From: Ornithinicoccus hortensis
GTDB lineage: Bacteria; Actinomycetota; Actinomycetes; Actinomycetales; Dermatophilaceae
Reading direction: 5' to 3'
DNA length: 64,000 nucleotides
Assembly (NCBI RefSeq): GCF_006716185.1
Contig: NZ_VFOP01000001.1
Location: 558,001-622,000 of the forward strand
Made by a program: the position numbers and the translations under genes. Below, piece by piece: positions 9,312 to 48,057 of this stretch; positions within the stretch are counted from its first letter, which is position 1, and each line of letters starts with the position of its first letter. The notes under the pieces are model-generated. The model had not been told where the DNA came from. It did not search any database and saw nothing but the letters and a program-made list of their open reading frames with translations.

Positions 9312-11477
<2,166 letters not shown>

Positions 11478-11560
11478 CCGCTGGGGGAGGGCTCCGGCCG
11501 AGACCCCGCGCAAGACGTAGTACGAACACTGGCCACTGAACGGCATACCAAAGGAACGTC

Positions 11561-14134
11561 GTGACAGAAACACCGCAGAGCGACCGGATCGAGGCGGTCG
11601 ACCTCAACACCGAGATGCAGCGCAGCTACATCGAGTATGCGATGAGCGTCATCGTCTCGCGCGCGCTGCCGGACGTGCGGGACGGGCTGAAGCCGGTGCA
11701 CCGCCGCGTCCTCTACGCGATGTATGACGGGGGCTACCGCCCGGACCGTGGCTTCAACAAGTGTGCCCGCGTCGTCGGCGACGTGATGGGGCACTACCAC
11801 CCGCACGGCGACAGCGCGATCTACGACGCCCTGGTCCGCCTCGTGCAGGACTGGGCGATGCGCTACCCGCTGGTCGACGGCCAGGGCAACTTCGGCACGC
11901 CCGGTGACGACCCCGCCGCGGCCCCCCGCTACACCGAGTGCAAGATGGCGCCGCTGGCCATGGAGATGGTCCGTGACATCACCGAGGACACCGTCGACTT
12001 CCAGGACAACTACGACGGCAAGGCCCAGGAGCCCACCGTCCTGCCCGCCCGGTTCCCGAACCTGCTGGTCAACGGCTCGGCCGGGATCGCGGTCGGGATG
12101 GCGACCCAGATCCCGCCGCACAACCTGCGGGAGGTGGCCGACGGCGTCCAGTGGCTGCTGGAAAACCCCGACGCCTCCCGCGAGGAGCTGCTCGAGGCGC
12201 TGATCGAGCGGATCCCCGGTCCGGACTTCCCCACCGGCGCCCTGATCATGGGCCGCCGCGGCATCGAGGAGGCCTACCGCACCGGGCGCGGCTCGATCAT
12301 CATGCGGGCCGTGGTCGAGGTCGAGGAGATCCAGGGTCGGCAGTGTCTGGTGGTCACCGAGCTGCCCTACCAGGTCAACCCGGACAGCCTGGCCAAGAAG
12401 ATCGCCGAACTGGTCAACGACGGCAAGCTCGGCGGCATCGCCGACATGCGGGACGAGACCTCCGGCCGGACCGGCCAGCGGCTGGTGATCGTGCTGAAGC
12501 GGGACGCGGTCGCCAAGGTCGTGCTCAACAACCTCTACAAGCACACCCAGCTGCAGCAGAACTTCGGCGCCAACATGCTCGCTCTGGTCGACGGCGTGCC
12601 GCGCACCCTGCCGCTGTCCGCCTTCGTGCGGCACTGGGTGGAGCACCAGATCGTGGTCATCCAGCGGCGCACGGCATACCGGCTGCGTCGCGCGGAGGAG
12701 GAGATCCACATCCTCCGCGGCTACCTCAAGGCCCTGGACGCCCTCGACGAGGTGATCGCGCTGATCCGCCGGTCCCCTACGGTCGAGCAGGCCCGGGACG
12801 GCCTGATGGAGCTGCTGGACGTCGACGAGGCGCAGGCGCGGGCCATCCTGGACATGCAGCTCCGGCGCCTGGCGGCCCTGGAGCGGCAGAAGATCATCGA
12901 GCAGCACGACAAGCTCGAGGCGCTCATCCTGGACCTCCAGGACATCCTGGAGAAGCCGCAGCGCCAGCGCGACCTGGTCAGCGAGGAGCTGGCCGAGATC
13001 GTGCAGCGGTTCGGCGACGACCGGCGCAGCCGGATCGTGCCCTTCGACGGCGACATGTCGATGGAGGACCTGATCCCCGAGGAGGACGTGGTCGTCACGA
13101 TCACCCGCGGCGGGTACGCCAAGCGGACCCGGGTCGCGGAGTACCGCCCGCAGAACCGTGGCGGCAAGGGCCGTCGCGGGGCCGCGCTGCGGGCCGACGA
13201 CGTGGTGAACCACTTCTTCACCACCAGCACGCACCACTGGTTGCTGTTCTTCACCAACCTGGGCCGGGTCTACCGCGCCAAGGCCTATGAGATTCCCGAG
13301 GGCGGACCCACCGGCAAGGGCCAGCACGTGGCCAACCTGATGGCCTTCCAGCCCGGTGAGGAAATCGCCCAGGTGCTGACGCTGAAGGACTACGAGCAGG
13401 CCGACTACCTGCTCCTGGCCACCCGCAACGGGCTGGTCAAGAAGACCCGCCTCGGCGACTACGACTCCCCACGGTCCGGTGGTCTGATCGCGGTCAACCT
13501 GCGCGATGGCGACGAGCTCGTCGGCGCGCAGCTGGCCGGTGCCGAGGACGACGTGCTGTTGGTCTCGGTCAAGGGCCAGTCGGTCCGGTTCACGGCGACC
13601 GACTCGGCGCTGCGTCCGATGGGCCGGGCCACCTCCGGGGTCACCGGGATGAAGTTCCGCGACGCCGACCACCTGCTCTCGATGAGCGTGATCCCGGACG
13701 GCACCGACCCCTACGTCTTCGTCGTCTTCGGCAACGGCAAGGCCAAGCGCACCCCGGTGTCGGCCTACCGGGTCCAGGGGCGCGGCGGCCTGGGCATCAA
13801 GGTGGCGAAGGCGACCGAGAAGGCGGGCGACCTGGTCGGCGCCCTGACGGTCGAGGAGACCGACGAGGTGCTGGTCGTGATGGAGCGCGGCAACGTCGTC
13901 CGGTCGGCCATCGACCAGGTCCGCGTCACCGGACGGGACACCGAGGGTGTCCGGTTCGCCACACCGGCCAAGGGCGACGCGATCGTGGCGGTGGCCCGCA
14001 ACGCGGAGTCCGCGCTGAGCGAGGAGATCGAACAGATCGAACTCGACCCCGACGAGGATTCGGCGTCTACCCCCGATGATGGCGTAACGTCGGACCCCAC
14101 AGGTCCGGCAGCCCCCGCCGAGGCCGACGAGTGA
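11561..14134 (+). CDS. gyrA: DNA gyrase subunit A
   Basis: This 857-residue subunit cuts and rejoins DNA. The catalytic tyrosine is Y124 in APRYTE. The quinolone-resistance region reads [10 protein letters not shown] with Ser85 and Asp89, the drug-sensitive type of residues; mycobacteria have Ala at the first site. The C-terminal beta-pinwheel includes the GyrA-box [11 protein letters not shown]. The protein ends in an acidic, Pro-containing tail. The start is a GTG at 11561 after AAAGGAACGTC. The next gene begins 22 bases downstream. Confidence 0.97.
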
Positions 14135-14156
14135 TTCCGCCTCAGGGAGGTCAGTG

Positions 14157-14834
14157 GTGAGCAGGACCGACCAGGGTGACTCGCCTGTGGACTCCGACGC
14201 GACCCAGAAGCTGAGCCGTCCCGGCACGCAGACCGGCGAGGGCTCGGGGATGCGTGACGGCGCCATGGCCCGCACGGCACCCCGTCGTGACCTGGAGCGC
14301 CGGGCCCGGGTCGCGGGTGCCGCTGGGTCCTCCGGCTCGTCCGGCAGCACCGGGTCGGGGTCGGGCGGCTCGTCGAGCAGTTCGGGGACCGGTGGGCGGG
14401 CTACCCGTCCGGCGGCCCGCACCGGCCAGCGCAACCCGGCCACCCGGGCACCGCGGCGCAGCGGACCCCGCCGGGTCAGGCTGACCCTCCAGCGGGTGGA
14501 CCCGTGGTCGGTGATGAAGATCTCGTTCCTGGTCTCTGTCGCCCTCGGCATCGCCGGCGTCGTCATGGTGACCGTGCTGTGGAGTGTGCTGTCCGGGATG
14601 CAGGTGTTCTCCACCGTCAACGAGCTGATCACCATGATCAGCACCGGCGAGGACGGTGGCCCGAGCTTCGACCTGATGGACTACCTGGGCTTCGGCCGGG
14701 TGGTGTCGCTGTCGGTCGTGATCGGCGTGATCAACGTGATCCTGCTGACCGCCCTGGCGACCCTGACCGCGTTCCTCTACAACGTGTGCACGGCGCTGGT
14801 CGGCGGGGCGCAGCTCACCCTGTCCGACGAGTGA
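14157..14834 (+). CDS. DUF3566 membrane protein
   Basis: This 225-residue protein carries a long, disordered, Ser/Gly/Arg-rich N-terminus of about 100 residues. A conserved DUF3566-type region starting VRLTLQRVDPWSVMKISFLV follows. Two membrane helices are visible near residues 120-145 and 180-212. DUF3566 genes sit directly after gyrA in most actinobacteria, and their role is unknown. Two adjacent GTG codons are possible starts. I chose the second (14157) because its GGGAGG site is at the better distance. Confidence 0.85.
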   Translation: MSRTDQGDSPVDSDATQKLSRPGTQTGEGSGMRDGAMARTAPRRDLERRARVAGAAGSSGSSGSTGSGSGGSSSSSGTGGRATRPAARTGQRNPATRAPRRSGPRRVRLTLQRVDPWSVMKISFLVSVALGIAGVVMVTVLWSVLSGMQVFSTVNELITMISTGEDGGPSFDLMDYLGFGRVVSLSVVIGVINVILLTALATLTAFLYNVCTALVGGAQLTLSDE

Positions 14835-14842
14835 GCCCCGTT

Positions 14843-14872
14843 TTGGTCCACCCCGGCGTGGTGAGGTAATCT
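14843..14872 (+). promoter_or_regulatory. Candidate tRNA-Ile promoter
   Basis: TTGGTC (14843-14848) and TAATCT (14867-14872) are separated by 18 bases, 60 bases upstream of the mature tRNA end. Confidence 0.55.
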
Positions 14873-14931
14873 CATCCGGCGCACCCCGGCATACCCGATG
14901 TGGTCTGCCACGCGCGAAACCCAGCACCACC

Positions 14932-15008
14932 GGGCCTATAGCTCAGACGGTTAGAGCGCTTCCCTGATAAGGAAGAGGTCACAGGTTCAAGTCCTGTTAG
15001 GCCCACCA
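14932..15008 (+). tRNA. tRNA-Ile (GAT anticodon)
   Basis: The acceptor arms GGGCCTA and TAGGCCC pair perfectly. The anticodon stem CTTCC/GGAAG holds loop CTGATAA with anticodon GAT. The T arm contains GGTTCAAGTCC. CCA is encoded. The gene lies downstream of gyrA as in most actinobacteria. Confidence 0.97.
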
Positions 15009-15058
15009 CAGCAGGCCCCCCGCCGGTCCACGGCGGGGACCCGACCGGAGTGTGTGAG

Positions 15059-15190
15059 ATGAACCGTTTGCTCCTCGTGGCAGTCGCCGCCCTCGGTGCC
15101 GCGGCACTGGTCAAGAAGTTGCAGGACCAGCAGGCCGAGCGGGACCTGTGGGCCGAGGCCACCGACGACGTGGCGGCCGGCCAGCGCTGA
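15059..15190 (+). CDS. DLW-39 family small protein
   Basis: This 43-residue peptide begins MNRLLLVAVAALGAAALVKK with a single hydrophobic helix. A charged segment containing the family-defining D-L-W-A-E-A-T-D follows. DLW-39 peptides are encoded between the tRNA-Ile and tRNA-Ala genes near gyrA throughout the actinobacteria, exactly as here. Their function is unknown. The ATG at 15059 is preceded by GGAGTGTGTGAG. Confidence 0.9.
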   Translation: MNRLLLVAVAALGAAALVKKLQDQQAERDLWAEATDDVAAGQR

Positions 15191-15217
15191 TCGCGCGGCA
15201 CCGGCACAACTGAACAA

Positions 15218-15293
15218 GGGGACTTAGCTCAGCTGGTAGAGCACCGCCTTTGCAAGGCGGGGGTCAGGGGTTCGAGCCCCCTAGTCTCCACCA
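15218..15293 (+). tRNA. tRNA-Ala (TGC anticodon)
   Basis: The acceptor strands GGGGACT and AGTCTCC pair with one G-U. The anticodon stem CCGCC/GGCGG holds loop TTTGCAA with anticodon TGC. The T loop is GTTCGAG. CCA is encoded. Confidence 0.97.
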
Positions 15294-15525
15294 CACGCAC
15301 GCGGAGTTCGTCGTCCTCGTCTGCGGTTCCCGGGACTCTACTGTTCACGAGGCTGCGCCGCTGGTCGTACTTGCGTCGCGAGGGCGAGCACCGTGATCAG
15401 CGTTACTGCCGTGATCGCGATGGGGAGCGAAGAGATAGTGGTGATGCCGCCGATTCGGGGGATAGTCTTCCGGCAGAGGGGAACAGGGCGGACAGGGAGC
15501 CCTGCGGCCCGTGGAGGGAGGAACG

Positions 15526-16200
15526 ATGAGCCTGATCGACCCGTCGACCCGGTGGTGGAACTCCTATCGCGTCCGTGGCTGGGCGGCCCGGGCGTGCTGG
15601 GTCGTCTCCATGACGTCCTGCTTCGTGATCGGCTGGTCCTTCATCGCGGGGGTGGGGCCGGCGGATGAGACCTCGGGCTGGCTGTTCTCCGCGCTCCTCC
15701 CCCTGTCCGTCCTCCTGATCATCGCCGGAGCCTTCCTGCACCTGGCGAGCGACCCCGGCGGGCGCTCCGAGGACTGGAATCCGCGCATCATCTTCCTGCC
15801 GATCGCCGGGTCGTTCTTCTTCCAGGGCGCGGGCGCGGTGGCCCGTGCGGTGAGCGAGGGCGTGGCGGTCAGGACCTTCCCGGCCGTCTTGGCGGCTGTC
15901 GGCCTGGTCGCCGCCGTGCTCGTGGAGGTGATCAGTCGCCGGGTGGAGAGCGTCCGGGCGCGCCGGGGCCGCGTGGCACGCAGCGGCATCACGACGCGCG
16001 GCACGGTGACGCGGACCCGCGGCTACTACCTCAACGAGTCCCGGGTCAGCAGGGTCACCGTCACGTTCACCGACGCGGACGGGCGGCAGCGGTGGGCGAG
16101 CCAGACGGTGGCCGGGCCCGTCCGGGTGGGTGCGCGGATGACCGTGGAGTACCTCCCGGGCGAGTTGGGCCGCCGGGGCGGGGTGGTCCTGGACGCGTGA
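15526..16200 (+). CDS. Membrane protein with C-terminal DUF3592-like domain
   Basis: This 224-residue protein has hydrophobic segments near residues 20-42, 53-75, 88-105 and 115-137. A soluble C-terminus follows in which GTVTRTRGYY, V-T-V-T-F-T-D-A-D-G-R and VEYLPGE resemble DUF3592 domains. The function is unknown. The ATG at 15526 has a strong GGAGGGAGGAACG site. It has no obvious partner: tRNA genes are upstream and a convergent NYN gene lies downstream. Confidence 0.75.
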   Translation: MSLIDPSTRWWNSYRVRGWAARACWVVSMTSCFVIGWSFIAGVGPADETSGWLFSALLPLSVLLIIAGAFLHLASDPGGRSEDWNPRIIFLPIAGSFFFQGAGAVARAVSEGVAVRTFPAVLAAVGLVAAVLVEVISRRVESVRARRGRVARSGITTRGTVTRTRGYYLNESRVSRVTVTFTDADGRQRWASQTVAGPVRVGARMTVEYLPGELGRRGGVVLDA

Positions 16201-16245
16201 CCGGCACCGGGCGGGTGGCCCGACCCCTCCGCTCAGCCGAAGAAC

Positions 16246-16818
16246 TCAGCCCAGGAACTGCGTCGGGTCGAACTCCTCGATCGGGATGATCCGGATCCGT
16301 GGCAGCGGGGTGTTGAACGCCTGCACGTCGTGCTCGAGGTCGAAACTGATCAACCCCTGCGACGCCAGCGGGGTGAAGCCGCTGTTGCGGAACTCCGCGA
16401 AGGCCATCACCGCCACCCGGCGGTCCCCGTCGAGCAGGGGCGTGAGGTCCTCCAGGAAGTCACCGTCGTGACTGACCAGGATGACGTCGTCGGTGCGGTC
16501 CTGCAGGGCCTGGAGCGTGCGCTGGATCGCGATGTCGACGATCTTCTCGTCCGCGGGCCCGGAGAGCGGCACGGGCAGGTAGCCCATCGCCTTGAGCGCC
16601 TGGACGAACGACATCGGCAGTCCGGTGCTGGCGTTCAGGTAGAACAGCCCGCGCGTCGGCTGGCCCCACCGCTCGGTGCTGAAGCTGAGCAGCCGGTCCC
16701 ACCGCGGCCGCTCGTCGGGGTGCGGGCGCCGCCCCAGGATCGAGGTGCCCAGCGTGGCGTCGATGTTCTCGCCGTCGACGAGCAGGTAGGTCGTGTGGCC
16801 GTCGGGCGTCTGCTCCAT
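16246..16818 (-). CDS. NYN domain (PIN-like) putative ribonuclease
   Basis: The 190-residue product matches the NYN/LabA-like family of PIN-fold proteins, many of which are metal-dependent RNases. Conserved acidic positions are visible: LLVDGENID near residue 15 and VILVSHDGDF near residue 110. A DEKIVDIAIQRTL helix precedes the second motif. The substrate is unknown. It lies 29 bases downstream of the ATP-grasp/esterase operon on the same strand, so it may be its last gene. The start is the ATG at 16818. Confidence 0.8.
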   Translation of the reverse strand: MEQTPDGHTTYLLVDGENIDATLGTSILGRRPHPDERPRWDRLLSFSTERWGQPTRGLFYLNASTGLPMSFVQALKAMGYLPVPLSGPADEKIVDIAIQRTLQALQDRTDDVILVSHDGDFLEDLTPLLDGDRRVAVMAFAEFRNSGFTPLASQGLISFDLEHDVQAFNTPLPRIRIIPIEEFDPTQFLG

Positions 16819-16847
16819 GGGCGGAGTGTATGCCGTCCGTCGCCCTC

Positions 16848-18032
16848 TTACTCGTAGACGTACTTCTGCGGCCCTGGGAAGGTCCAGGACAGGCCGTCGC
16901 GCAGCCGGTCCCGCCAGTTCTCCCACGAGTGCCCGTCGCGCGCCTCGACATACCGCACCGTCGTGCCGGTCGACTCGAAGACCGGCACCATCGAGCGGTT
17001 GGCCACGATGAGCGGCTCGTAGATCCCGCACGAGATGAACATCCGGTCCACCACCTTGCGCGGCGCCCCCCGGTAGCGGTTCATGAACTTCACCACCGGG
17101 TCGAACGCCTCGCCCCCGCCGTGGTCGTCGCCGATGTCGGTGAACACGAACGAGCCGGACTGCAGGATCAGCGACCCGAACATGCCGGGGTTGCGGCTGG
17201 CCACGGACAGCGAGGCGACCCCGCCGAAGCTCGCGCCCATCAGGCACCGGCCGTCCGGGCGCCGGATCAGCGGGAACCGCTCCTCCAGGTGTGGGATCAG
17301 CTCGTGCGCGATGTGCCGGGCGTGCGGGGCGTAGTTGGGATACTCCCGCAGCCGGTCGCCCGGGTTGCTGAACACGACGATCGTCTCGGCCATGTCGAGC
17401 CGGTGGATCAGGTTGTCCAGCACCGTCTTCATTGACGAGTAGTTGATGTAGTCGTCACCGTCGTGGACCACCAGCAGGGGGTATGTCGTGCTGGTGCGGA
17501 AGCGCGCGGGCAGGTAGACCCGGCTCAGCGTCTTGCGCCGCAGGGCACGGGAGTCCAGCTGCATGTCCAGCAGCTCACCGGGGCGGGCGTCCGGGTCCGG
17601 CTGGGTCCACTCGGGGGTCTGGTAGCCGACCGCCTGGCAGACTGAGGAGGACCCGACCGGGCTGTGCGCGACCTTGGGGTTCAGCGGGTCGTTGCCGCGC
17701 TCCACGTGGTCACCGAGGCGCACCTCGAGCTGGTACTCGACCCGCGAGCCGGCCGGCAGCTCGATGATCACGTACCAGAGGGAGGTCTGGCCGATCTGCC
17801 TCATCGGCACCCGCTGCGGCTGGTTCACGATCCGGTGGGTGACCCAGACCTCGTCGGCGTTGCCGCGGAACAGGAAGGTGCAGTTGGACCCCTCGATGAT
17901 CGGCACGGACCGCTCGTGCAGGAAGGCGTCGATCTGGCCCTCGTCCAGGTCCCGCTGCTCGCGCAGGCCGTTGATCGCCAGCTTGTGGCGCACCCGGCGG
18001 CGCGCCGGGTAGTTGGTGGTGTTCGGGCTCAT
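16848..18032 (-). CDS. Enterochelin-esterase-like alpha/beta hydrolase with N-terminal CBM48-like domain
   Basis: This 394-residue protein has an N-terminal beta-rich domain of about 150 residues resembling the domain in front of Fes/IroE-type esterases. The esterase D fold (PF00756-type) follows. The nucleophile elbow is GASFGG with Ser268, and the likely catalytic His is His368 in DGHSWENW. VVHDGDDYINY begins the hydrolase core. The ATG at 18032 overlaps the upstream stop by four bases (ATGA). No secretion signal is evident, so a cytosolic role is likely. The substrate is unknown, and the neighbouring ATP-grasp suggests an ester or amide formed in the same pathway. Confidence 0.85.
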   Translation of the reverse strand: MSPNTTNYPARRRVRHKLAINGLREQRDLDEGQIDAFLHERSVPIIEGSNCTFLFRGNADEVWVTHRIVNQPQRVPMRQIGQTSLWYVIIELPAGSRVEYQLEVRLGDHVERGNDPLNPKVAHSPVGSSSVCQAVGYQTPEWTQPDPDARPGELLDMQLDSRALRRKTLSRVYLPARFRTSTTYPLLVVHDGDDYINYSSMKTVLDNLIHRLDMAETIVVFSNPGDRLREYPNYAPHARHIAHELIPHLEERFPLIRRPDGRCLMGASFGGVASLSVASRNPGMFGSLILQSGSFVFTDIGDDHGGGEAFDPVVKFMNRYRGAPRKVVDRMFISCGIYEPLIVANRSMVPVFESTGTTVRYVEARDGHSWENWRDRLRDGLSWTFPGPQKYVYE

Positions 18033-18973
18033 GCCGCCCCACGCCCCTTCAGGGTCCCGTCGGGCTGGAGCACCGGCGCACCCTCGGGCAGCAGGCCGTC
18101 CGACCCCACGTCGACCCGGGCGCGCTGCTCCAGCAGCAGGCTCTCGGCCGGTGCGAACCGTCGCGCCATCATCGCCATCCGTTCGTGGTTGCCCAGGTCC
18201 AGGCGTTCCCGGGCGCTGGGGAAGACCACCACGTCGTTCAGCAGGCCCACCCCGGTCGAGAACACCTCCGGCAGCGACGGCCCGTGCGGGGCGCGGTCGT
18301 GGAAGAGCACGATCTGGTCGGTCAGGGCCATCGCCCCGGCGCCCCAGGCGATCACCGGCGAACTGATCCGGGGCGCGACGTTGAACAGGTGCAGGGCACC
18401 GGTGAGCACCCCGACGTGACCGCCGGTGATGACGACGGCCGACACGTCGGCGAGCTCGTGGGAGATGAGCTCGCGGAAGGCCGCCACCGCCATCCGCTCG
18501 TGCGGGCGCCAGCGCTCCCAGAACTCGGCGTGCACCTGCGAGACCCGGGCCAGGTGCGCCTTGTCCATCCCGCGCATGATCCGCTCCACGTCCTGGATGG
18601 CCATCTGGTGCACCTCCTCGCTGCGGGCGTGGTGGTTGCGCAGCGAGTCGATCGCGTCGTCCACGTGGCCCAGGCCGAGCAGGTAGAGGTCCTGCATCTC
18701 CTCCAGCACCTGGCGACGGTGCCGGTCGGCGTCGGCGAACTCGGGGTCGGCGTCCCAGACCTCCTGCATCCGGTGCCAGAGCCGCAGGTTGACCGCGTCC
18801 CCACCCACCAGGTCCCGCAACAGTTCGTCGTCGGGCTCGCGCTCGCGCCACCCGGCGTTCACCAGGGCGATCCGCCCGCTGATGCCGAGGTCGGAGAGGA
18901 CCTGGTCGACGTGCGGGTTGCGCTGGGGCCCGAGCAGGGTGATCGAAGGGACCGGGGCGGCCTCAGCTGGCAT
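18029..18973 (-). CDS. Class I glutamine amidotransferase-like / S51-like fold protein, catalytic Ser apparently absent
   Basis: The 314-residue protein begins MPAEAAPVPSITLLGPQRNP. It contains VVITGGHVGVLTGAL followed by PVIAWGAGAMALTDQIVLF. The second segment aligns in shape with the nucleophile turn of type 1 amidotransferase-like and S51 (cyanophycinase-type) proteins, usually G-x-S-A-G-A, but here Gly stands where Ser or Cys is expected. A long helical middle is rich in Glu/Arg/His. It overlaps both neighbours: its start lies inside the end of the ATP-grasp gene (11 bases) and its stop overlaps the esterase start. The fold call is moderately secure. The function is not known, and a non-catalytic or altered enzyme is possible. 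Confidence 0.6.
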   Translation of the reverse strand: MPAEAAPVPSITLLGPQRNPHVDQVLSDLGISGRIALVNAGWREREPDDELLRDLVGGDAVNLRLWHRMQEVWDADPEFADADRHRRQVLEEMQDLYLLGLGHVDDAIDSLRNHHARSEEVHQMAIQDVERIMRGMDKAHLARVSQVHAEFWERWRPHERMAVAAFRELISHELADVSAVVITGGHVGVLTGALHLFNVAPRISSPVIAWGAGAMALTDQIVLFHDRAPHGPSLPEVFSTGVGLLNDVVVFPSARERLDLGNHERMAMMARRFAPAESLLLEQRARVDVGSDGLLPEGAPVLQPDGTLKGRGAA

Positions 18974-20183
18974 GGACCTGGACGGTCTGGCCGACCGCGT
19001 CCAGCATCTCGCGCAGGATGTCGTAGTCCGGGTGCCGCATCCGGACGTAGGCGTTGGCCATGTAGCCGGCCTCAACGGGCTGGGTGGGGGTGCCGGCGCC
19101 CGGCAGGTGGGCGTCCATCACCCAGCGGCCGTAGTTGTTCTCCACCGTCTCCAGGCCGGAGTAGCCGGTGATCACGCCGTCCCGGTCGGGGCGCAGCGCG
19201 ATGATCCCGGCCGAGTGGCTCCGGCTGGGGCGGGTGAAGACCTGGCCGTGCACCAGCGAGTCGGCCCAGGCCCGGTAGACGTCGATGTCGTTGGCGGCGC
19301 AGTACAGGTCCCAGCAGCCCACGCCGGGGGGCCGGGCGCCGATCTCGCTGAACTTCAGCCCCTTGGGGCCGTAGAACCACTCCATGTGGGTGGCCGAGGT
19401 CTCGATGCCCAGGGCGTTGATGACCCGTTGGCCCATGTCGCGGATCTCGTCGTAGAGACCGCCGCCGTCGATCCGGTTCGTGGCGATGAACTGGGGGCTG
19501 ATCCACCGGGTCCGCATCGCCTCGAGCACGCCCGGGTAGTAGTGGGAGACGAAGTCCATCGCGACCCCGCCGTCGAGGGCGATGGTGTCGTAGAACCCCT
19601 CGTGACCCTCGATGAACTCCTCCACGGCGATCGACTTCACCCCGGGACCGAACGCGGCCATCGCGGCCTTCAGCTCCGTGTCGTTGGTGACCTTCGAGGT
19701 GGCCGCGGCGCCCGCCCCGTCGCGCGGCTTGAGGATCAGCGGGTAACCGACCCTGCTGGCGAAGGCGAGCACCTGGTCCAGGGTCTCCGCGCCGGTGGAG
19801 GCGGCCGTCGGGACCCCGGCGGCGCGCAGGGCGTCCTTCATCGACGGCTTGTCGCGGCACAACCACGTGGTGTGCACGGAGGTGCCCGGTATGCCGGTCC
19901 GCTCCCGGACCACGGCCGCCGCCAGGGTGTGCGCCTCGATGGTCGCCTCGAGCTTGTCCACCCAGACCATCCGCTGGACCCGCTCGACGGTGGCGGTGAG
20001 CTGCTCGATGTCGGTGACCGACCCGATCTGCTCGTAGTGCTGCATCCAGGAGCGCAACTGGTCGTCCAGGTAGTCAGCGGGGGTCTCGCCGATGCCGATC
20101 ACGTTGGCGCCCGACTCAGCGAGGGCCCGGACGAACTCGCGTTGGTTCCGGGGGAAGTGGGGCTCGACGAAGATGATGTTCAC
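18963..20183 (-). CDS. ATP-grasp ligase
   Basis: This 406-residue protein has the ATP-grasp architecture. The N-terminal Rossmann-like domain starts MNIIFVEPHFPRNQREFV. Nucleotide-binding residues include PLILKPRDGAGAAAT and IAVEEFIEGHEG. The metal-binding end of the fold is FSEIGARPPGVG. ATP-grasp enzymes join a carboxylate to an amine or thiol through an acyl-phosphate; the substrate here cannot be read from sequence. It is the first gene of an overlapping three-gene operon with an amidotransferase-fold protein and an esterase. The start is the ATG at 20183. Confidence 0.88.
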   Translation of the reverse strand: MNIIFVEPHFPRNQREFVRALAESGANVIGIGETPADYLDDQLRSWMQHYEQIGSVTDIEQLTATVERVQRMVWVDKLEATIEAHTLAAAVVRERTGIPGTSVHTTWLCRDKPSMKDALRAAGVPTAASTGAETLDQVLAFASRVGYPLILKPRDGAGAAATSKVTNDTELKAAMAAFGPGVKSIAVEEFIEGHEGFYDTIALDGGVAMDFVSHYYPGVLEAMRTRWISPQFIATNRIDGGGLYDEIRDMGQRVINALGIETSATHMEWFYGPKGLKFSEIGARPPGVGCWDLYCAANDIDVYRAWADSLVHGQVFTRPSRSHSAGIIALRPDRDGVITGYSGLETVENNYGRWVMDAHLPGAGTPTQPVEAGYMANAYVRMRHPDYDILREMLDAVGQTVQVHAS

Positions 20184-20217
20184 AGGTCTGAGCCTCCCAC
20201 ACCACCCCGGTCCCGGA

Positions 20218-22464
20218 TCAAGATGATCGGGCCAACTTGTCGAAGGACTCTGCCACCACCCGGGCGTAGACGTGCATCCCGGCGATGTCCGGGTGGATCC
20301 GGTCGGACTGGAGGGTCTCCGGCTCCTCGGTCATCGCGGCGTGCCAGTCGCCCACCACGGCGTTGGGGTAGTCCGCGACGACCTCGTCGATCGTCTCGTT
20401 CGACGGGGGGACGAAGGTGCTGGAGGAGTAGAGGTTCATCACCACGACCTGGCGGTCCGGGCCGAGCGTGTCGAGCACCTCGCGCAGCGCGTCGCCGTCC
20501 ACGCCGGCGTTGGTCCCGAAGTGCACGATGACGTTGTCCCGCACAGTGTCCGCCTCGAGGGCAGCCTCCAGGACGGGCATCGCGTCGCCCCACTGGCGGT
20601 TGGACTTGGCCTCGAAGGTCATCCCGGGGAAGCGGTACTCCAGGCCGTCGGCGCTGGTCACCACGAGCGAGTCGCCGATCGCGGTGATGTCCTTCCCGTC
20701 CGGCACCAGCAGGCCGTCGGCGTCCTCGGTGTACCCGAACGGGTGGTCCCCGTCCGCGGCGTCCTTCTCGTCGCTTCCCTTGTCGTCGCCTTCCTTGTCG
20801 CCGGCTTCCTTGTCCTCCTCGTCCTCCTTGGCGTCCTCCTCGGCCCGGGCCTCGTCACCCTTGTCGGACTTCGGGTCCGACCCGGAGTCCGGTCCCGCGC
20901 CGAGGGCAGCCCCGGGGCCGAAGCCGTCGCCCAGGAGGCCGCCCGATCGTTCGTCACCGGCTGCCTCGTCCGCAGCGCCGGAGTCTGCCCCGGCGTCCTC
21001 GGCGTCACCGGCCTCCTCGCCGGCGGCGGATCCGGCGTCCTCGCCGGGGACGGGGGTGCCGCCGAGGCGGGCCTCCTGCTCCTCGATCAGCTGCTGCGTC
21101 TCGGACTTGTCGGGGGCGGTGGCGACGGCCACCGCGGCGAACAGCACCAGCAAGGCCACCGTGCCCGCGAGGACCCGGGGCGCCCAGCCGTCGGACCAGG
21201 GGGCGGTCGCCCAGTCGCGCACCCGCGCCGCCGTGGCCCGGAACCCGTCCTCGCGCACCGGGGTCTCGATGAACCGGTGGGACAACTCGGACAGGACGAA
21301 GGTGACCACCAGGGCACTTGTGAGCACCAGCGCGGCCCGGACCGTGCCCTGGGCGAACGGCACCAGGGTCGCTGCGACCATCAGCACCGGCCAGTGCCAC
21401 AGGTAGATGCCGTAGGACCGCTCGCCCACCCAGACCAGGGGGCGCAGCTGCATCACCCGGCGCCACGGGCTGTCCGACTCCAGCAGCGCCGCGATCAGCA
21501 CGACCGTGGCCAGGCAGGCCAGCAGGATGCCGCCGCGGAAGGTCCACGCGGAGGAGTCGCCGAGCACCCGCATCAGGAGGACCAGGACCGCCAGGGCGCC
21601 GATCACGGCATACGGCCGCACCCGCCGCCAGGTGTCGGTGCGCAGGCCGGCCCGGTGCGGGGCGGCCCACGCGAAGGCGAGCGCCACCCCGAGCATCAGG
21701 CCGAACAGGTGGGTGTCCGTGCCGTAGTAGACCCGGGTGGCGTCGGTGCCGGGCTGGTAGAGCACCGCCATCAGCAGGGCCGAGCCGAGCCCGACGGCGG
21801 TGACCACGCCGATCCGCTGCCGTGACGTCCGGGCGAGCGCGAGCAGGACCACCAGGAGCACCGGCCAGAACAGGTAGAACTGCTCCTCCACGGCCAGCGA
21901 CCAGAAGTTCACGAAGAGCAGCGGCGAGGTGTTGTGGAAGTAGCTGGCCCCCGCACCGATCTCCAGCCAGTTGGTGGAGAAGGTCAGGGCACCGACCGCC
22001 TGGCGGCCGATCGCCACGAGCAGGTCGCCGCCGACGAGGCGGGCCGCGGCGATGCTGACCACCACGACGGTGAGCAGCGCCGGGAGCAACCGCCGGGCCC
22101 GGCGCAGCCAGAAGCGCGGCAGGTCCAGCCGACCCTTGGAGGTGAGCTCGCGGGCGAGCAGGGTGGTGATCAGGAAGCCCGAGACGACGAAGAAGATGTC
22201 GACGCCGAGGAACCCGCCGGGCAGCACCGTGGGGGTGAAGTGGAAGACCAGCACCCCGAGGATCGCCAGCGCGCGGATGCCGTCCAGTCCGGGGATCCGG
22301 CCGGGCCGGGGCCGCAGGTCGTCGGGGCCGTGGTGCCGGCGGCGCCGGGGCGCACCGCGGTCGTGCTCCGGCGTATGCCGTGGGGCGGCCTGCGGGAGGG
22401 TCGGGACGGCCGTGTCCGCCGGGGGTGCTTGTAGCGCATCGACCCGGTGAGCAGTGGTCGTCAT
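20218..22464 (-). CDS. OatA-like membrane O-acyltransferase fused to SGNH domain
   Basis: The 748-residue protein combines an acyltransferase-3 domain (about residues 60-420, roughly ten membrane helices, with GLDGIRALAILGVLVFHF supplying the conserved His) with an extracytoplasmic SGNH domain (about 580-748). SGNH motifs are visible as ITAIGDSLVV (block I), FGTNAGVD and DRIHPD (catalytic Asp/His). This is the layout of peptidoglycan or polysaccharide O-acetyltransferases. Between the domains lies an unusually long, charged linker (about 455-570) of Ala/Gly/Glu/Asp then Lys/Asp/Glu repeats. The ATG at 22464 follows GGGAGGAG. The accepted sugar is unknown. Confidence 0.9.
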   Translation of the reverse strand: MTTTAHRVDALQAPPADTAVPTLPQAAPRHTPEHDRGAPRRRRHHGPDDLRPRPGRIPGLDGIRALAILGVLVFHFTPTVLPGGFLGVDIFFVVSGFLITTLLARELTSKGRLDLPRFWLRRARRLLPALLTVVVVSIAAARLVGGDLLVAIGRQAVGALTFSTNWLEIGAGASYFHNTSPLLFVNFWSLAVEEQFYLFWPVLLVVLLALARTSRQRIGVVTAVGLGSALLMAVLYQPGTDATRVYYGTDTHLFGLMLGVALAFAWAAPHRAGLRTDTWRRVRPYAVIGALAVLVLLMRVLGDSSAWTFRGGILLACLATVVLIAALLESDSPWRRVMQLRPLVWVGERSYGIYLWHWPVLMVAATLVPFAQGTVRAALVLTSALVVTFVLSELSHRFIETPVREDGFRATAARVRDWATAPWSDGWAPRVLAGTVALLVLFAAVAVATAPDKSETQQLIEEQEARLGGTPVPGEDAGSAAGEEAGDAEDAGADSGAADEAAGDERSGGLLGDGFGPGAALGAGPDSGSDPKSDKGDEARAEEDAKEDEEDKEAGDKEGDDKGSDEKDAADGDHPFGYTEDADGLLVPDGKDITAIGDSLVVTSADGLEYRFPGMTFEAKSNRQWGDAMPVLEAALEADTVRDNVIVHFGTNAGVDGDALREVLDTLGPDRQVVVMNLYSSSTFVPPSNETIDEVVADYPNAVVGDWHAAMTEEPETLQSDRIHPDIAGMHVYARVVAESFDKLARSS

Positions 22465-22590
22465 GAGGTGGCTCCTCCCAGGCGGACCGAGACTGGTCGC
22501 GGGTCCAGCCTAGGTGGGGCCGTCCCCGTGGCTGGGAATCCGCTGGGCGTGTCACCGAACCTGCCAGGAGCGGGAGCCGCCAGGGATGCG

Positions 22591-22633
22591 CCGAGGGCGG
22601 TGGACGTCCGGTCGGGATGTCCACCGCCCTCGG
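22591..22633 (-). terminator. Strong hairpin terminator after the CwsA-like gene
   Basis: CCGAGGGCGGTGGAC (22591-22605) and GTCCACCGCCCTCGG (22619-22633) form a perfect 15-base-pair stem with a 13-base loop. It lies 20 bases beyond the stop of the leftward CwsA-like gene. There is no U-tract, as is common for actinobacterial terminators. Confidence 0.8.
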
Positions 22634-22653
22634 CGGCCGTGCTGCGGGTCGGG

Positions 22654-23508
22654 TCAGGGCAGACCGGGGCCCTTCGGGGTGTCCTTGCCGTCCTCGATGT
22701 CGTCGAGCACGTCGGTCACCTCCCGGTCGCCCAGGCCGGTCGTGGCGTCGGTGTTGGTGCCGGGCACCTCCGCCTCCTCGGCGGACAGCGGCTCCTCGGT
22801 AGCTGCCTCGGCGGCGGCCGGGGCGGCGGCCGTGTCCTTGTTCAGCGTCTCGCGCACCTGGGAGTCGACACCCGGGGCGCCACCGACGGGACGGGACCCG
22901 CTGCTGGCCGCCCACGGGTCGGTCTTGGGCGTCTGCTGCTGCTGGTTGAGGTACCAGGCGATCCCGGCGCCGGCCGCGGCCAGCAGGCCGAGGGTGAGCA
23001 GCACGCTGCCCTTGCGCCGCTTCTTCTTGGGCGCGCCGGTGACGACGGCCACCGGACCCTCCTGCTGGGCGAGCAGGTCGTTCTTGGACTCCTGGACCGA
23101 GCCGAGCCAGTCCGAGAGCTTGGGCAGCAGGTCGTCGACGATGTAGTCGTGCGCCTTGTCCACCTTGGGCCCGACGCTGTCCAGCGCCTCGTTCGCCCTC
23201 GGCACGGCCGCGTCGATGCCCTTGTCCAGCCCGTGGACCGCGCGGTCCCGGGCGTGCGCCGCGGCGGTCGCGGCACTGGCGGCGTAGGCGCCTGCCTTGG
23301 GGCCCACCTTGTCCTTGACGTCGTGGAACAGCGCAGAGTCCTGCACGTTGTGCGCGAGGTTCGAGGCCCGGTCCTGCACCGTGGATGCGGCCCGTTCACC
23401 GGCTGCTGCTGCCTTGTCGCGCAGCTGGGCAGCCTTGTCCCCCGCCTGCTGGGCGCGGTCGGCCGCAGCTGCTGCGACCTTCTCCTTCTTGCTCTTGCGG
23501 TTGAACAC
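22654..23508 (-). CDS. CwsA-like cell-wall/division protein
   Basis: The 284-residue protein has a long, Ala/Lys/Asp/Arg-rich helical region (about residues 1-150, apolipoprotein-like, coiled-coil prone). One membrane helix (SVLLTLGLLAAAGAGIAWYL, about 170-190) follows a KKKRRKG stop-transfer. An acidic, disordered tail completes it. Mycobacterial CwsA, a Wag31/CrgA partner in division, sits at the same place just before ppiA in the opposite direction, so the assignment rests on synteny and architecture; sequence identity is weak by eye. The GTG at 23508 has an AGGAGG site. A perfect hairpin terminator follows. Confidence 0.65.
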   Translation of the reverse strand: MFNRKSKKEKVAAAAADRAQQAGDKAAQLRDKAAAAGERAASTVQDRASNLAHNVQDSALFHDVKDKVGPKAGAYAASAATAAAHARDRAVHGLDKGIDAAVPRANEALDSVGPKVDKAHDYIVDDLLPKLSDWLGSVQESKNDLLAQQEGPVAVVTGAPKKKRRKGSVLLTLGLLAAAGAGIAWYLNQQQQTPKTDPWAASSGSRPVGGAPGVDSQVRETLNKDTAAAPAAAEAATEEPLSAEEAEVPGTNTDATTGLGDREVTDVLDDIEDGKDTPKGPGLP

Positions 23509-23606
23509 CGATCCTCCTGTTGTCTCGCCGTTGTCCCCCATCCTGCACTGTGCAGGCGGCAAACCTCTAGCCGAGGGGGCAGCTGCCCCCGTGCGAGGAT
23601 AACGAC

Positions 23607-24125
23607 ATGAACGTGACCTTCCAGACGAACAAGGGCGACATCAACCTCGTCCTCTTCCCCGACCACGCCCCCAAGACCGTCCGCAACTTCGTCGGACTGG
23701 CCAAGGGCGAGCTGGACTACAAGGACGACGCGGGCCGCGCCAACCCGACCCCCTACTTCGACGGCCTGGGCTTCCACCGGATCATCCCGAACTTCATGAT
23801 CCAGGGTGGCTGCCCGCTCGGTCAGGGCACCGGTGGCCCCGGCTTCGAGTTCGACGACGAGATCAGCCCGGACAAGGACTTCAGCCAGCCCTACGTGCTG
23901 GCCATGGCCAACGCCGGCAAGCGGATGGGCAAGGGCACCAACGGTTCCCAGTTCTTCATCACGACTGCGCCGACCCCCTGGCTGCAGGGCAAGCACACCA
24001 TCTTCGGCGAGGTGGCCGACGGCGCCAGCCGCGAGGTCGTGGACGCGATCGGCAACGTGCCGACCGGCCGGATGGACCGTCCGATCGACCCGGTCGTCAT
24101 CGAGAAGGTCATCGTCTCCGAGTGA
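23607..24125 (+). CDS. ppiA: Cyclophilin-type peptidyl-prolyl cis-trans isomerase
   Basis: This 172-residue cytosolic cyclophilin speeds X-Pro isomerisation. Typical motifs include FHRIIPNFMIQGG (active-site Arg and Phe), the Met/Ala-containing LAMANAGKRMGKGTNGSQFFIT and W-L-Q-G-K-H-T-I-F-G. There is no signal peptide. The ATG at 23607 lies 98 bases from the divergent CwsA-like start. The gene order cwsA-ppiA-rhomboid matches other actinobacterial origin regions. Confidence 0.96.
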   Translation: MNVTFQTNKGDINLVLFPDHAPKTVRNFVGLAKGELDYKDDAGRANPTPYFDGLGFHRIIPNFMIQGGCPLGQGTGGPGFEFDDEISPDKDFSQPYVLAMANAGKRMGKGTNGSQFFITTAPTPWLQGKHTIFGEVADGASREVVDAIGNVPTGRMDRPIDPVVIEKVIVSE

Positions 24126-24144
24126 TCCACCGCCCGGATCACCG

Positions 24145-25035
24145 ATGAGCCACAGCGACCCGGCGGCCGCACCCGTCTGCCCGCGCCACCCCGACCGGGT
24201 GGCCTACGTCCGGTGCCAGCGGTGCGGCCGCCCGGCCTGCCCCGACTGTCAGCGTCCCGCCGCCGTCGGGATCCAGTGCGTGGACTGCGTCGCCCAGGCC
24301 TCCCGGGAGGCCCCTCGCGCCACCACCCGGTTCGGCGGCACCCCGCGCCGGACGACCCGCCCGCTGGTCACCCTGGTCCTGATCGGGCTGTGCGTGCTGA
24401 CCTACCTGGGCCAGCAGCTGAACGACGAGGTGACCGTCGCGCTGTGGTTCGGACCGTGGCTCGCGGAGACGGAGCCGTGGCGCTTCCTCACGGCTGCCTT
24501 CGTGCACTCGCCCTCGGGCTTCATGCACATCGTGTTCAACATGTATGCCCTCTACCTGGTGGGCGGCTACCTGGAGCCGATGCTCGGGCGGGCCCGCTAC
24601 CTGGCGCTCTACCTGGTCAGTGCGCTGGGCGGCAGCGTGGCGGTGCTGCTGCTGGCGAGCGTCCCCGAGGGATGGTTCACCCCGACCGTGGGGGCGTCCG
24701 GCGCGGTCTTCGGGCTGTTCGGCGCCATGCTCGTGCTGAACCGGCACCTGGGGCGGGACACCACCGGGATCCTGGTGATCCTCGGGATCAACATGGTGAT
24801 CGGCTTCCTGGTGTCCGGCATCTCCTGGCAGGCGCACGTGGGGGGCGCCGTCACGGGCGTGGTCATCGCCGGGATCTACGCCCTGACCAGCAGCCGCGGA
24901 CGGGACCGCAAGTCGGTCACCCGCCGCCGGCTCGCCTGGCCCGGCCTCGCCGTCCTGGTCCTGCTGCTCGGCGCCCTGTCGGTCTGGCGGATCCACGAGG
25001 TCACCGGCACCGTCGTCTGGATGTTCGGCAGCTGA
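24145..25035 (+). CDS. Rhomboid family intramembrane serine protease
   Basis: This 296-residue membrane protein begins with a small Cys/His-rich zinc-binding domain (CPRHPDRVAYVRCQRCGRP and further Cys pairs, residues 11-52). A six-helix rhomboid core follows. The catalytic Ser lies in GASGAVFGLFG and the catalytic His in AHVGG. The HIVFNMYALY segment is typical of the family. A final hydrophobic helix, near residues 268-283, precedes the C-terminus. It starts 20 bases after ppiA and is likely co-transcribed with it. Its substrate is unknown. Confidence 0.94.
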   Translation: MSHSDPAAAPVCPRHPDRVAYVRCQRCGRPACPDCQRPAAVGIQCVDCVAQASREAPRATTRFGGTPRRTTRPLVTLVLIGLCVLTYLGQQLNDEVTVALWFGPWLAETEPWRFLTAAFVHSPSGFMHIVFNMYALYLVGGYLEPMLGRARYLALYLVSALGGSVAVLLLASVPEGWFTPTVGASGAVFGLFGAMLVLNRHLGRDTTGILVILGINMVIGFLVSGISWQAHVGGAVTGVVIAGIYALTSSRGRDRKSVTRRRLAWPGLAVLVLLLGALSVWRIHEVTGTVVWMFGS

Positions 25036-25050
25036 GTTACACCGCTGTAG

Positions 25051-25083
25051 TTATCCCCAGACCTGTGGATAGCGTGTGGATGG
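25051..25083. promoter_or_regulatory. DnaA-box-like cluster upstream of prs-like gene
   Basis: TTATCCCCA (25051-25059), TGTGGATAG (25064-25072) and TGTGGATGG (25075-25083) differ from TTATCCACA, or its inverse, by one, one and two bases. They lie in the 136-base gap between the rhomboid and PRPP synthetase genes, about 21 kb from oriC. Confidence 0.45.
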
Positions 25084-25171
25084 CGCTGCCCCCAGGGTGA
25101 CCGACAGGAGACGGCGCTAGGGTGCGGGGAGCCCGAGTGTCCCTGTGCCGACCGCCACCGAGGGGTAGTTG

Positions 25172-26155
25172 ATGCGCGAGATCGTCGTGTTCTCCGGGAG
25201 TGCCCATCCGGGTCTTGCCAAGGACATCTGCGATGGCCTGGGGGTGCGGTTGGCGCCCTCGACCATCAGCAGGTTCAGCAACGACTGCCTCCAGGCGCAG
25301 TTGCGGGCCAACTGCCGGCAACGGGACGTCTACATCGTCCAGCCGCTGGTGCGACCGACCCAGGACATGCTGATGGAGCTGCTCCTGATGGTGGATGCGG
25401 CCCGGGGTGCGTCGGCGGCCCAGATCACCGCGGTGATCCCGCACTACGCCTACGCCCGGTCGGACAAGAAGGACTCCTCGCGGATCTCCCTGGGCGGCCG
25501 CCTGGTCGCCGACCTGTTGGGCACGGCCGGCGTCGACCGGGTGCTCACCATGGCGCTGCACGCGCCCCAGGTGCACGGCTTCTTCCCGGTCCCGGTCGAC
25601 CACCTGACGGCGATCGGCGTGCTCGCCGACCACTTCCGGGGGCTGGACCTAGCCGACTCGGTGGTGGTGTCACCGGACCTGGGCAACGCCAAGACCGCAA
25701 CCCAGTTCGCGCGGCTGCTCGGCCTGCCGGTCGCGGCCGGCAGCAAGCAGCGGATGGCCGACGACAAGGTCGTCATCGACGCGATCGTCGGTGACGTCGC
25801 GGGCCGCCGCGCGATCGTGCTGGACGACGAGATCGCCACCGGGGGCTCCATCGTGGAGCTGCTGGAGCGGCTCGAGGACGCCGGGTGCACCGAGGCCGCG
25901 GTGGCCTGCACGCACGGGCTCTTCGCCGGTCCGGCGGTGGAGCGGTTGCGGAACCACCCGATGATCACGCAGGTGGTCACCACCGACACGGTGCCGGCAC
26001 CGGCGGACTGGCCAGAACTGCAGGTGCGCACGGTCGCCGACCTGTTCGCCGAGGCGATCGGGCGGATCCACGCCGGTGAGTCGGTGAGCAGCCTGTTCGA
26101 CGGGGTGGACCCGGCCTACGCCCCGCCCCAGGGGTCGCTCTTCGACCAGTCCTGA
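25172..26155 (+). CDS. Ribose-phosphate pyrophosphokinase, divergent paralogue
   Basis: This 327-residue protein has the PRPP synthetase fold: two phosphoribosyltransferase-like halves that transfer pyrophosphate from ATP to ribose 5-phosphate. The N-terminus reads REIVVFSGSAHPGLAKDI. The flexible loop is YARSDKKDSSRISLGGRLVADLL instead of the usual Y-A-R-Q-D-R-K-x-x-x-R-x-P-I-S-A-K. The PRPP-binding loop is VLDDEIATGGS instead of V-D-D-M-I-D-T-G-G-T. These changes suggest a second, specialised enzyme rather than the housekeeping copy. The ATG at 25172 follows GAGGGG. A TTG immediately before it is less likely. Confidence 0.85.
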   Translation: MREIVVFSGSAHPGLAKDICDGLGVRLAPSTISRFSNDCLQAQLRANCRQRDVYIVQPLVRPTQDMLMELLLMVDAARGASAAQITAVIPHYAYARSDKKDSSRISLGGRLVADLLGTAGVDRVLTMALHAPQVHGFFPVPVDHLTAIGVLADHFRGLDLADSVVVSPDLGNAKTATQFARLLGLPVAAGSKQRMADDKVVIDAIVGDVAGRRAIVLDDEIATGGSIVELLERLEDAGCTEAAVACTHGLFAGPAVERLRNHPMITQVVTTDTVPAPADWPELQVRTVADLFAEAIGRIHAGESVSSLFDGVDPAYAPPQGSLFDQS

Positions 26156-26162
26156 CGACGGC

Positions 26163-26420
26163 TCAGCGCCACCGGGTCGCCATGGCGAACCCCGCCATGA
26201 TCGAGCCCAGGCCGATCACCAGGTTCCAGTAGCCGATCTTGAGCGGCCAGTCGCCCGAGGTGATGTAGAAGGTGGACACCCACAGCACGCCGAAGATCAT
26301 CAGCCCACACATCACCGGGACGAACCACGGCGGGTTGGCCGCCGGTGCCTTGGCGACGTCCGGCGGCGGCTTCTCGCGGGATCGGGACTTCTTGGGCGGG
26401 CGGCCCTTGGACTCCGGCAC
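26163..26420 (-). CDS. crgA: Septation inhibitor protein CrgA
   Basis: This 85-residue protein has a basic, Pro/Lys-rich N-terminus and two membrane helices (about 32-50 and 62-80) with the NPPWFVPVM and YWNLVIGLG motifs of CrgA. CrgA acts at the septum and interacts with FtsZ/FtsQ and PBPs in relatives. The start is a GTG at 26420 with an AAGGAG site. It converges on the prs-like gene, with 7 bases between stops, and is divergent from the DUF881 gene, as in other actinobacterial origins. Confidence 0.93.
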   Translation of the reverse strand: MPESKGRPPKKSRSREKPPPDVAKAPAANPPWFVPVMCGLMIFGVLWVSTFYITSGDWPLKIGYWNLVIGLGSIMAGFAMATRWR

Positions 26421-26523
26421 GGTAACTCCTTGTCGGGTGTGGTGCCCACAGGATACGCAGGTCCCCGGGATACCCTGACCAGCGACAGTGCACGACTTCT
26501 CCGGATCGAGGGATGACGCGCCG

Positions 26524-27297
26524 ATGACCAGCGAACGGCCGGCTCGACGGCGAGGGTCCTGGCGCGTCCTGGTGCCGGTCGTCACGCTGGCCGCCGGGCT
26601 GATGTTCGGCACCTCCGCGGCGCTCGCCGACCGCACCGGGTCCGTGGAGCGCCCGACGGACCTGGCGGGGCTGATCCAGGAGCGGAACCGTGCCGTGGCC
26701 GACCTGACCCGGCAGGCCGAGGAGCTCTCCGCCGAGGTGGACGGGTTGAGCCGGGACGGCAGCACGGTCCGGCAGACCACCGCCCAGGCGGACCGGATCG
26801 CCCCGGGCGTGGGGACCCTCCCGGTGCAGGGACCGGCGCTGCGGGTGACCCTGGACGACGCCGGCTACAGCCTGGAGACCCTTCCCGAGGGCTACACGGT
26901 CGACGACGTCGTGGTGCACCAGCAGGACGTCCAGTCGGTCGTCAACGCGCTGTGGAGCGGCGGCGCCGAGGCGATGATGATCCAGGACCAGCGGATCGTG
27001 GCCACCAGCTCCGTCCAGTGCGTCGGCAACACCCTCTACCTGCAGGGCAGGGTGTACTCGCCGCCCTACTCGATCACCGCGATCGGTGACGTCGAGGGGA
27101 TGCAGCAGGCGCTGGAGGACGACCCGGTCGTGACCAACTTCCGGGGGTGGTCCCGGGCGCTCGGCCTCGGCTACCAGGTCGAGGACGTGGGGGTCCAGGA
27201 GTTCCCGGGCTACGCCGGTCCCACCCGGCCGCTGCACGCCGAGGTGATCACCCCGCGTGAGCCCACCGAGCCCACGGTCGGCCCGGTCCAGCGGTAG
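26524..27297 (+). CDS. DUF881 family protein
   Basis: This 257-residue protein has a basic N-terminus, one membrane anchor (VLVPVVTLAAGLMFGTSAALA), a short coiled coil (IQERNRAVADLTRQAEELS) and a conserved outer domain. That domain includes GPALRVTLDDA, VVNALWSGGAEAMMIQDQRI and YSPPYSITAIGD, all typical of DUF881. The genes neighbour crgA and pknB in actinobacteria. Their role is unknown but probably division- or envelope-linked. The start at 26524 is uncertain. An upstream in-frame GTG at 26488 is possible. Confidence 0.85.
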   Translation: MTSERPARRRGSWRVLVPVVTLAAGLMFGTSAALADRTGSVERPTDLAGLIQERNRAVADLTRQAEELSAEVDGLSRDGSTVRQTTAQADRIAPGVGTLPVQGPALRVTLDDAGYSLETLPEGYTVDDVVVHQQDVQSVVNALWSGGAEAMMIQDQRIVATSSVQCVGNTLYLQGRVYSPPYSITAIGDVEGMQQALEDDPVVTNFRGWSRALGLGYQVEDVGVQEFPGYAGPTRPLHAEVITPREPTEPTVGPVQR

Positions 27298-27315
27298 GTC
27301 CGAGGAGACCAGCCG

Positions 27316-47866: not shown

Positions 47867-48057
47867 CCGCCGCGCCACGCGCGTCGTCGAACGTCTCACG
47901 AGGCTTCCGGGACAACTTCCATTCGTCTCGGGGTTGCTCTTAGGTCTGGACCGAGTCACCAGCGGGCTATAACCTCCCCAGCAGGTCGTTGCCCCGATGG
48001 GTGGCTGCCTGGAGTCCCCGTGTTGCCCGGTCCCGGGCAAAAACAAAGGAGTTTCTC

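Follow-up and report, generated by a model that had tools for sequence, protein, structure and literature searches.

A conserved ATP-grasp ligase, S51 homologue and esterase gene trio in actinobacteria, with a likely pseudoenzyme among its products

Three genes overlap end to end in the DNA stretch analysed here (the window: 64,000 nucleotides, positions 558001–622000 of a 3.9 Mb single-contig genome). They encode an ATP-grasp ligase (ligase A), a homologue of S51 peptidases (the middle protein) and an esterase, and they form one conserved unit. The trio is a genuine conserved system, apparently undescribed and built of known families, and its sequences indicate that it likely includes a pseudoenzyme. 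Our preferred explanation, to which we assign a probability of roughly 0.55, places the trio at the centre of a conserved pathway of ligases and hydrolases in which one small conjugate, linked through an amide or an ester, is assembled and trimmed.

All three genes lie on the minus strand (Table 1), and their coordinates bear out the overlaps of 11 and 4 bases given in the original prediction. A NYN-domain gene follows 29 bases downstream of the esterase. Among named relatives, those that match the middle gene best belong to Ornithinimicrobium (61–62% identity). The surrounding region (window 9330–29322) holds gyrB-gyrA-DUF3566, cyclophilin and PASTA kinase genes, an arrangement typically found near the replication origin. 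A rhomboid gene, identified from one tested member, is one recurrent neighbour cluster near the trio (7 related loci). Elsewhere in the window, two large proteins (47989–50778 and 51405–53897) both carry cell wall binding domain 2, one together with a 5'-nucleotidase C-terminal domain and the other with a PKD domain.

Table 1. Genes of the trio and its immediate neighbours, in window coordinates.
Feature	Position	Strand	Remarks
ATP-grasp ligase A	18963..20183	-	406 aa, GTG start; PF02222 E 1.1e-7
Middle gene, S51 (cyanophycinase/peptidase E fold) homologue	18029..18973	-	314 aa; predicted pseudoenzyme in the window's genus
Esterase, alpha/beta hydrolase with enterochelin-esterase-type N-terminal domain	16848..18032	-	394 aa; PF00756 E 3.3e-21
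NYN-domain gene	16246..16818	-	PF01936 E 1.7e-8
Membrane acyltransferase (Acyl_transf_3), upstream of the trio	20218..22464	-	PF01757 E 4.6e-30

The trio was located in other genomes by tblastn and profile searches, and its neighbourhoods were read with a rough gene caller based on GC3, which got some frames wrong, among them the window's middle-gene start and esterase. Ligase A, middle gene and esterase stand in this order and on one strand in all 40 family loci fetched, out of 70 genomes of the window genome's own family that have the middle gene besides the window's. Nine of 12 further loci keep both order and strand (counting L021, whose ligase is cut by a contig end), one (L027) has the ligase reversed and two are cut by contig ends. 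The gap between ligase and middle gene is at most 60 bases in 49 of 50 loci, as is that between middle gene and esterase (49 of 50), some of the large overlaps in this measurement coming from the choice of start codon. The exact 11- and 4-base overlaps recur in 10 of the 11 measurable loci whose middle protein has glycine at the nucleophile position (the Gly clade, described below).

Co-occurrence across the family is nearly complete: among 149 genomes, ligase A (match E ≤ 1e-40) and the middle gene are both present in 70 and both absent from 78, the single genome with the middle gene alone being 58% complete and in 340 contigs. In 69 of these 70 genomes the two genes share one contig and strand, with ligase A upstream and match ends 5–100 bases apart; in the other (G456) they lie on two separate contigs. 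The corresponding Fisher value of 2e-42 overstates the evidence because the genomes are related. The middle gene occurs in 71 of the 149 family genomes and in two of 296 genomes of another class (profile searches; in the latter one strong match, 8.2e-119, and one marginal, 2.9e-4), and in six of 396 sampled genomes of the phylum (single-sequence search). The trio thus conserved in the family recurs in other actinobacterial classes, in Myxococcota and in one deltaproteobacterial MAG; its presence is patchy, and its product accordingly dispensable. The original prediction had read the overlaps as one pathway or complex that forms an acyl bond and opens an ester or amide. The conserved unit stands, on gene order in 40 of 40 loci and on co-occurrence, whereas the bond chemistry is something we infer.

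Ligase A passes the ATP-grasp family cut-off (PF02222, 32.1 bits against 27), in agreement with its initial assignment, and K152, E268, E280 and R284 are near-invariant in 52 aligned sequences, the window's included. Its nearest solved sequence is the L-amino acid ligase 4wd3_A (E 3.9e-14), and it also matches BacD (3vmm, E 6.2e-8). L-amino acid ligases convert a carboxylate into an acyl phosphate, which is then joined to an amine. Modification of a ribosomal peptide, as in graspetide pathways, is a very unlikely alternative role: ATP-grasp ligases there form lactones or lactams, and some loci include peptidases and possibly an alpha/beta hydrolase, according to the available part of PMC8939145, but ligase A has an L-amino acid ligase as its closest match, and the neighbourhood clusters show no conspicuous recurrent small gene; they comprise open reading frames of at least 80 residues from the rough caller, so that shorter precursors would escape.

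The middle protein is an S51 homologue by sequence match, with a helical insertion of ~100 residues (about residues 64–177). It had first been described as type 1 amidotransferase- or S51-like, and only the second half of that description survives: a class I glutamine amidotransferase is rejected, as all 52 sequences have Gly or Ser, and none has Cys, at the nucleophile position. These 52 are what remains of 53 aligned loci (Ser in 41, Gly in 12) once one truncated and unreliable Ser row (L022) is set aside. Within the xSAG turn, glycine is found in the window (Gly211, in WGAGAM) and in 11 relatives, and serine in the other 40. In cyanophycinase the catalytic Ser and His are 42 residues apart. 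The candidate catalytic His, assigned by position only, would accordingly be position 253, 42 residues after Ser/Gly211. The window has Ser there, and 26 of the 52 sequences have His. The triad of the related PepE is Ser120/His157/Glu192, and S51 homologues without peptidase activity are known (both from the available part of PMC9239234).

In a tree of the 52 rows, the 12 Gly forms make up one clade (support 100/99), which groups with 11 His-less Ser forms (support 92/81); the other rows of the enclosing set have both Ser and His. On these sequences Gly211 is a lineage-specific loss, so the glycine noted originally is real in the window and is not a family trait. The most parsimonious order seems to be loss of the candidate His first and of Ser later. 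Three loci keep Ser with another residue at the candidate His position (Asp in L020, Gln in L021, Tyr in L094), so that the candidate His is possibly dispensable or wrongly assigned. The Gly clade keeps 45 of the 63 columns conserved in Ser/His forms, including W210, A212–M215, D226, P252 and R257, for which reason its middle protein looks like a constrained pseudoenzyme. Of the 18 columns not kept, five are replaced in 12 of 12 sequences (Glu51, Arg100, His166, Ser211 and His253); the loss is thus wider than the two candidate catalytic residues. Pseudogene decay was considered and is not supported, no stops having been counted inside the matches and the 45 conserved columns being retained; one genome (G537) has its middle-gene match in two pieces within one open frame. 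Middle-gene distances exceed ligase distances by a factor of 2.04 in the Gly clade and of 1.81 and 1.79 in the remaining groups, so slightly relaxed constraint on the middle gene is possible there.

The predicted fold of the middle protein is best matched by pseudo-CphB and cyanophycinase, and ligase A has a partial match to cyanophycin synthetase (E 8.5e-11). Both would fit a cyanophycin-like storage peptide, in which ATP-grasp ligases build an Asp-rich or isopeptide polymer, the S51 homologue is a former hydrolase and the esterases are accessory. We nevertheless consider this unlikely: the synthetase match covers only ~95 residues and reaches 40.6 bits against a cut-off of 850, the Mur-ligase domain is absent from the family-search results for the ligases, a whole clade lacks the S51 nucleophile while the operon persists, and two esterases are left unexplained.

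The esterase consists of a PF00756 domain with Ser268 and His368 in place, as had been predicted, and its GxSFG and DGH motifs are kept in 52 of 52 sequences, the window's included. Its N-terminal domain, initially taken as CBM48-like, matches Enterochelin_N in 12 of 12 cases and CBM_48 in 2 of 12 (best 0.0061), and is by sequence nearer to the N-domain of enterochelin esterases. The closest PDB match of the whole protein is the enterochelin esterase Fes (2b20, E 4.2e-12), which together with the N-domain raises the idea of a siderophore-type or depsipeptide pathway whose ATP-grasp ligases assemble a chelator and whose Fes-like esterase opens esters to free the cargo. Such a pathway is improbable, given that the score against the NCBIfam enterochelin esterase equivalog (NF007758) is 86 bits against a cut-off of 222, and that no siderophore gene appears among the neighbour proteins put through family searches, a minority of the recurrent neighbours.

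The system is larger than the trio, and includes other ATP-grasp ligases and a second esterase. Elsewhere, the trio is accompanied by ATP-grasp paralogues B and C, a RimK-like ATP-grasp protein (C5) and the second esterase (C1, also PF00756). Pfam yields nothing significant for C5, whose ATP-grasp call comes from a PDB profile (E 3.6e-4) and a RimK-family NCBIfam match below cut-off (E 2.3e-7). Clusters of three or four ligases that also contain the trio, or as much of it as the contig covers, are found at L018, L020, L022, L023, L024, L025 and L027, and C, B and C5 follow one another at L150, where ligase A, middle gene and esterase were not detected. Every one of the 71 family genomes with the middle gene has C5 (matches E ≤ 4.9e-113), as do 34 of the 78 that lack this gene; in the phylum sample C5 occurs in six of six middle-gene genomes against 29 of 396 overall. 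B-like matches of at least 67% identity occur in five of 149 family genomes, all five with the trio. Of 20 C5 loci outside the family, 16 contain a second-type esterase (est2) and 12 a C1-like esterase. The older unit may have been a ligase with two esterases, the trio being a second such unit formed round an S51 homologue.

In the window's genome these components are dispersed, with B and C together at about 467.6–470.1 kb, C5 and a C1-like esterase at 127.9–129.9 kb and another C1 at 1181 kb, and they would be tied to the trio by analogy with other genomes. This C5 ligase and its esterase adjoin a VTC-domain gene and a DUF4956 gene (L033:9827-13615); VTC domains are linked to polyphosphate. 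C1 follows the trio in 17 of the 40 family loci (within L067–L096), 16 of which keep the middle-gene His, L094 having Tyr, and four His-bearing loci (L069, L074, L076 and L095) are without C1. The pattern does no more than suggest a link between C1 and the middle-gene His.

The genes flanking the trio in the window are more restricted. The NYN gene, correctly placed by the original prediction, is adjacent to the trio at the Gly-clade loci and at L077, lies ~3 kb off in L073 and is found at none of the other loci compared; it was accordingly rejected as a core pathway member. The acyltransferase is directly upstream of the trio in L057–L064 and at a distance in L017, only in loci of the window's genus. 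It matches a SucT-type NCBIfam model (E 1.9e-24, 86.1 bits against a cut-off of 1275) and carries a long C-terminal part. An origin in phages, plasmids or defence systems was also rejected: PADLOC-DB anti-phage models gave no match for 6 proteins at 0.001, no plasmid match was found for the middle protein, and the PHROGs gave one weak match of unknown function for the ligase (7.1e-6) and none for the middle protein, esterase or NYN protein.

Some loci place the system beside glycogen metabolism. Of 21 family loci, 9 have glgB and 11 have pgm in the fetched stretch around C5, both cluster names being drawn from one member, L108. In L020 (Myxococcota) the glycogen synthase gene glgA ends 3 bases before ligase A, and in L027 glgA meets the second esterase, with a GH13 protein carrying CBM48 also present, as are glgC- and GH57-like genes judged from sequence reading alone. 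These loci would allow a write/erase cycle on alpha-glucan, in which ATP-grasp ligases esterify or amidate glycogen, or an oligosaccharide derived from it, with an amino or hydroxy acid, paired CE1-type esterases remove the group and the pseudo-S51 protein acts as a reader subunit. The linkage is patchy, occurring in three lineages. We give this cycle a low probability since glgA, glgB, glgC, pgm and the GH57-like gene occur at none of 20 further C5 loci outside the family, and no glycogen gene is near the window's trio or its genome's C5 locus; the glgA query likewise found no match in L021, L022, L024 and L025. If this is true, bacterial glycogen would undergo a covalent modification so far unrecognised, a new kind of storage-polysaccharide modification.

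The pathway we favour, one that assembles and trims a small conjugate, takes into account that a ligase and an ester hydrolase share one tight unit, which suggests that bonds are formed and opened in one compound. Ligase A would activate a carboxylate as an acyl phosphate and join it to an amine or hydroxyl, and the esterase would cut an ester in the product or in an intermediate. The middle protein would ancestrally have been a serine peptidase for an Asp/isoAsp-type amide, and in Ornithinimicrobium may now be a non-catalytic binding or regulatory subunit. The further ATP-grasp ligases and second esterase lie beside the trio elsewhere and are represented here by homologues at other chromosomal sites. 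These results define an apparently undescribed, conserved ligase/hydrolase system of actinobacteria that has relatives in Myxococcota. Within the same operon, one S51 homologue exists with Ser and His, without the His and without the Ser, a natural series that makes the role of a pseudo-peptidase beside a ligase directly testable.

No description of the trio's gene set was found in the open-licence PMC literature, where absence is weak evidence, and to that extent the initial statement that no named system has this trio holds. L-amino acid ligases (4wd3 and BacD) share ATP-grasp sequence similarity with ligase A, and are not known to partner with an S51 homologue and a Fes-like esterase. Fes and CE1 esterases have an esterase domain and an N-terminal domain in common with the trio esterase, which differs from Fes in falling below the equivalog cut-off and in having no siderophore context among its annotated neighbours. 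Cyanophycinase CphB and peptidase E (MEROPS S51) are without the helical insertion of the middle protein, which in the window also differs from them by Gly for the Ser nucleophile and Ser for the candidate His. Pseudo-CphB of Pseudobacteroides cellulosolvens (7uqv), for which no paper was found in the same literature, is 12% identical to the middle protein in a comparison by fold and sequence identity. The available parts of the articles on C7orf58 (PMC2824669), S51 homologues (PMC9239234) and graspetide loci (PMC8939145) contain no system with the trio's gene set. According to the available part of PMC2824669, the animal C7orf58 proteins fuse an ATP-grasp domain to a PC-esterase and are predicted to modify cell-surface polymers; they share with the trio the tie between ATP-grasp ligase and esterase, although their esterase is GDSL/SGNH-like, secreted and animal, and an S51 partner goes unmentioned there. 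R2K-clade (CDC123) operons, described in an article in whose main text no words that start with esterase, hydrolase or peptidase occur (PMC4431377), resemble the larger trio clusters, as far as the available part of that article goes, in having more than one ATP-grasp ligase per bacterial operon.
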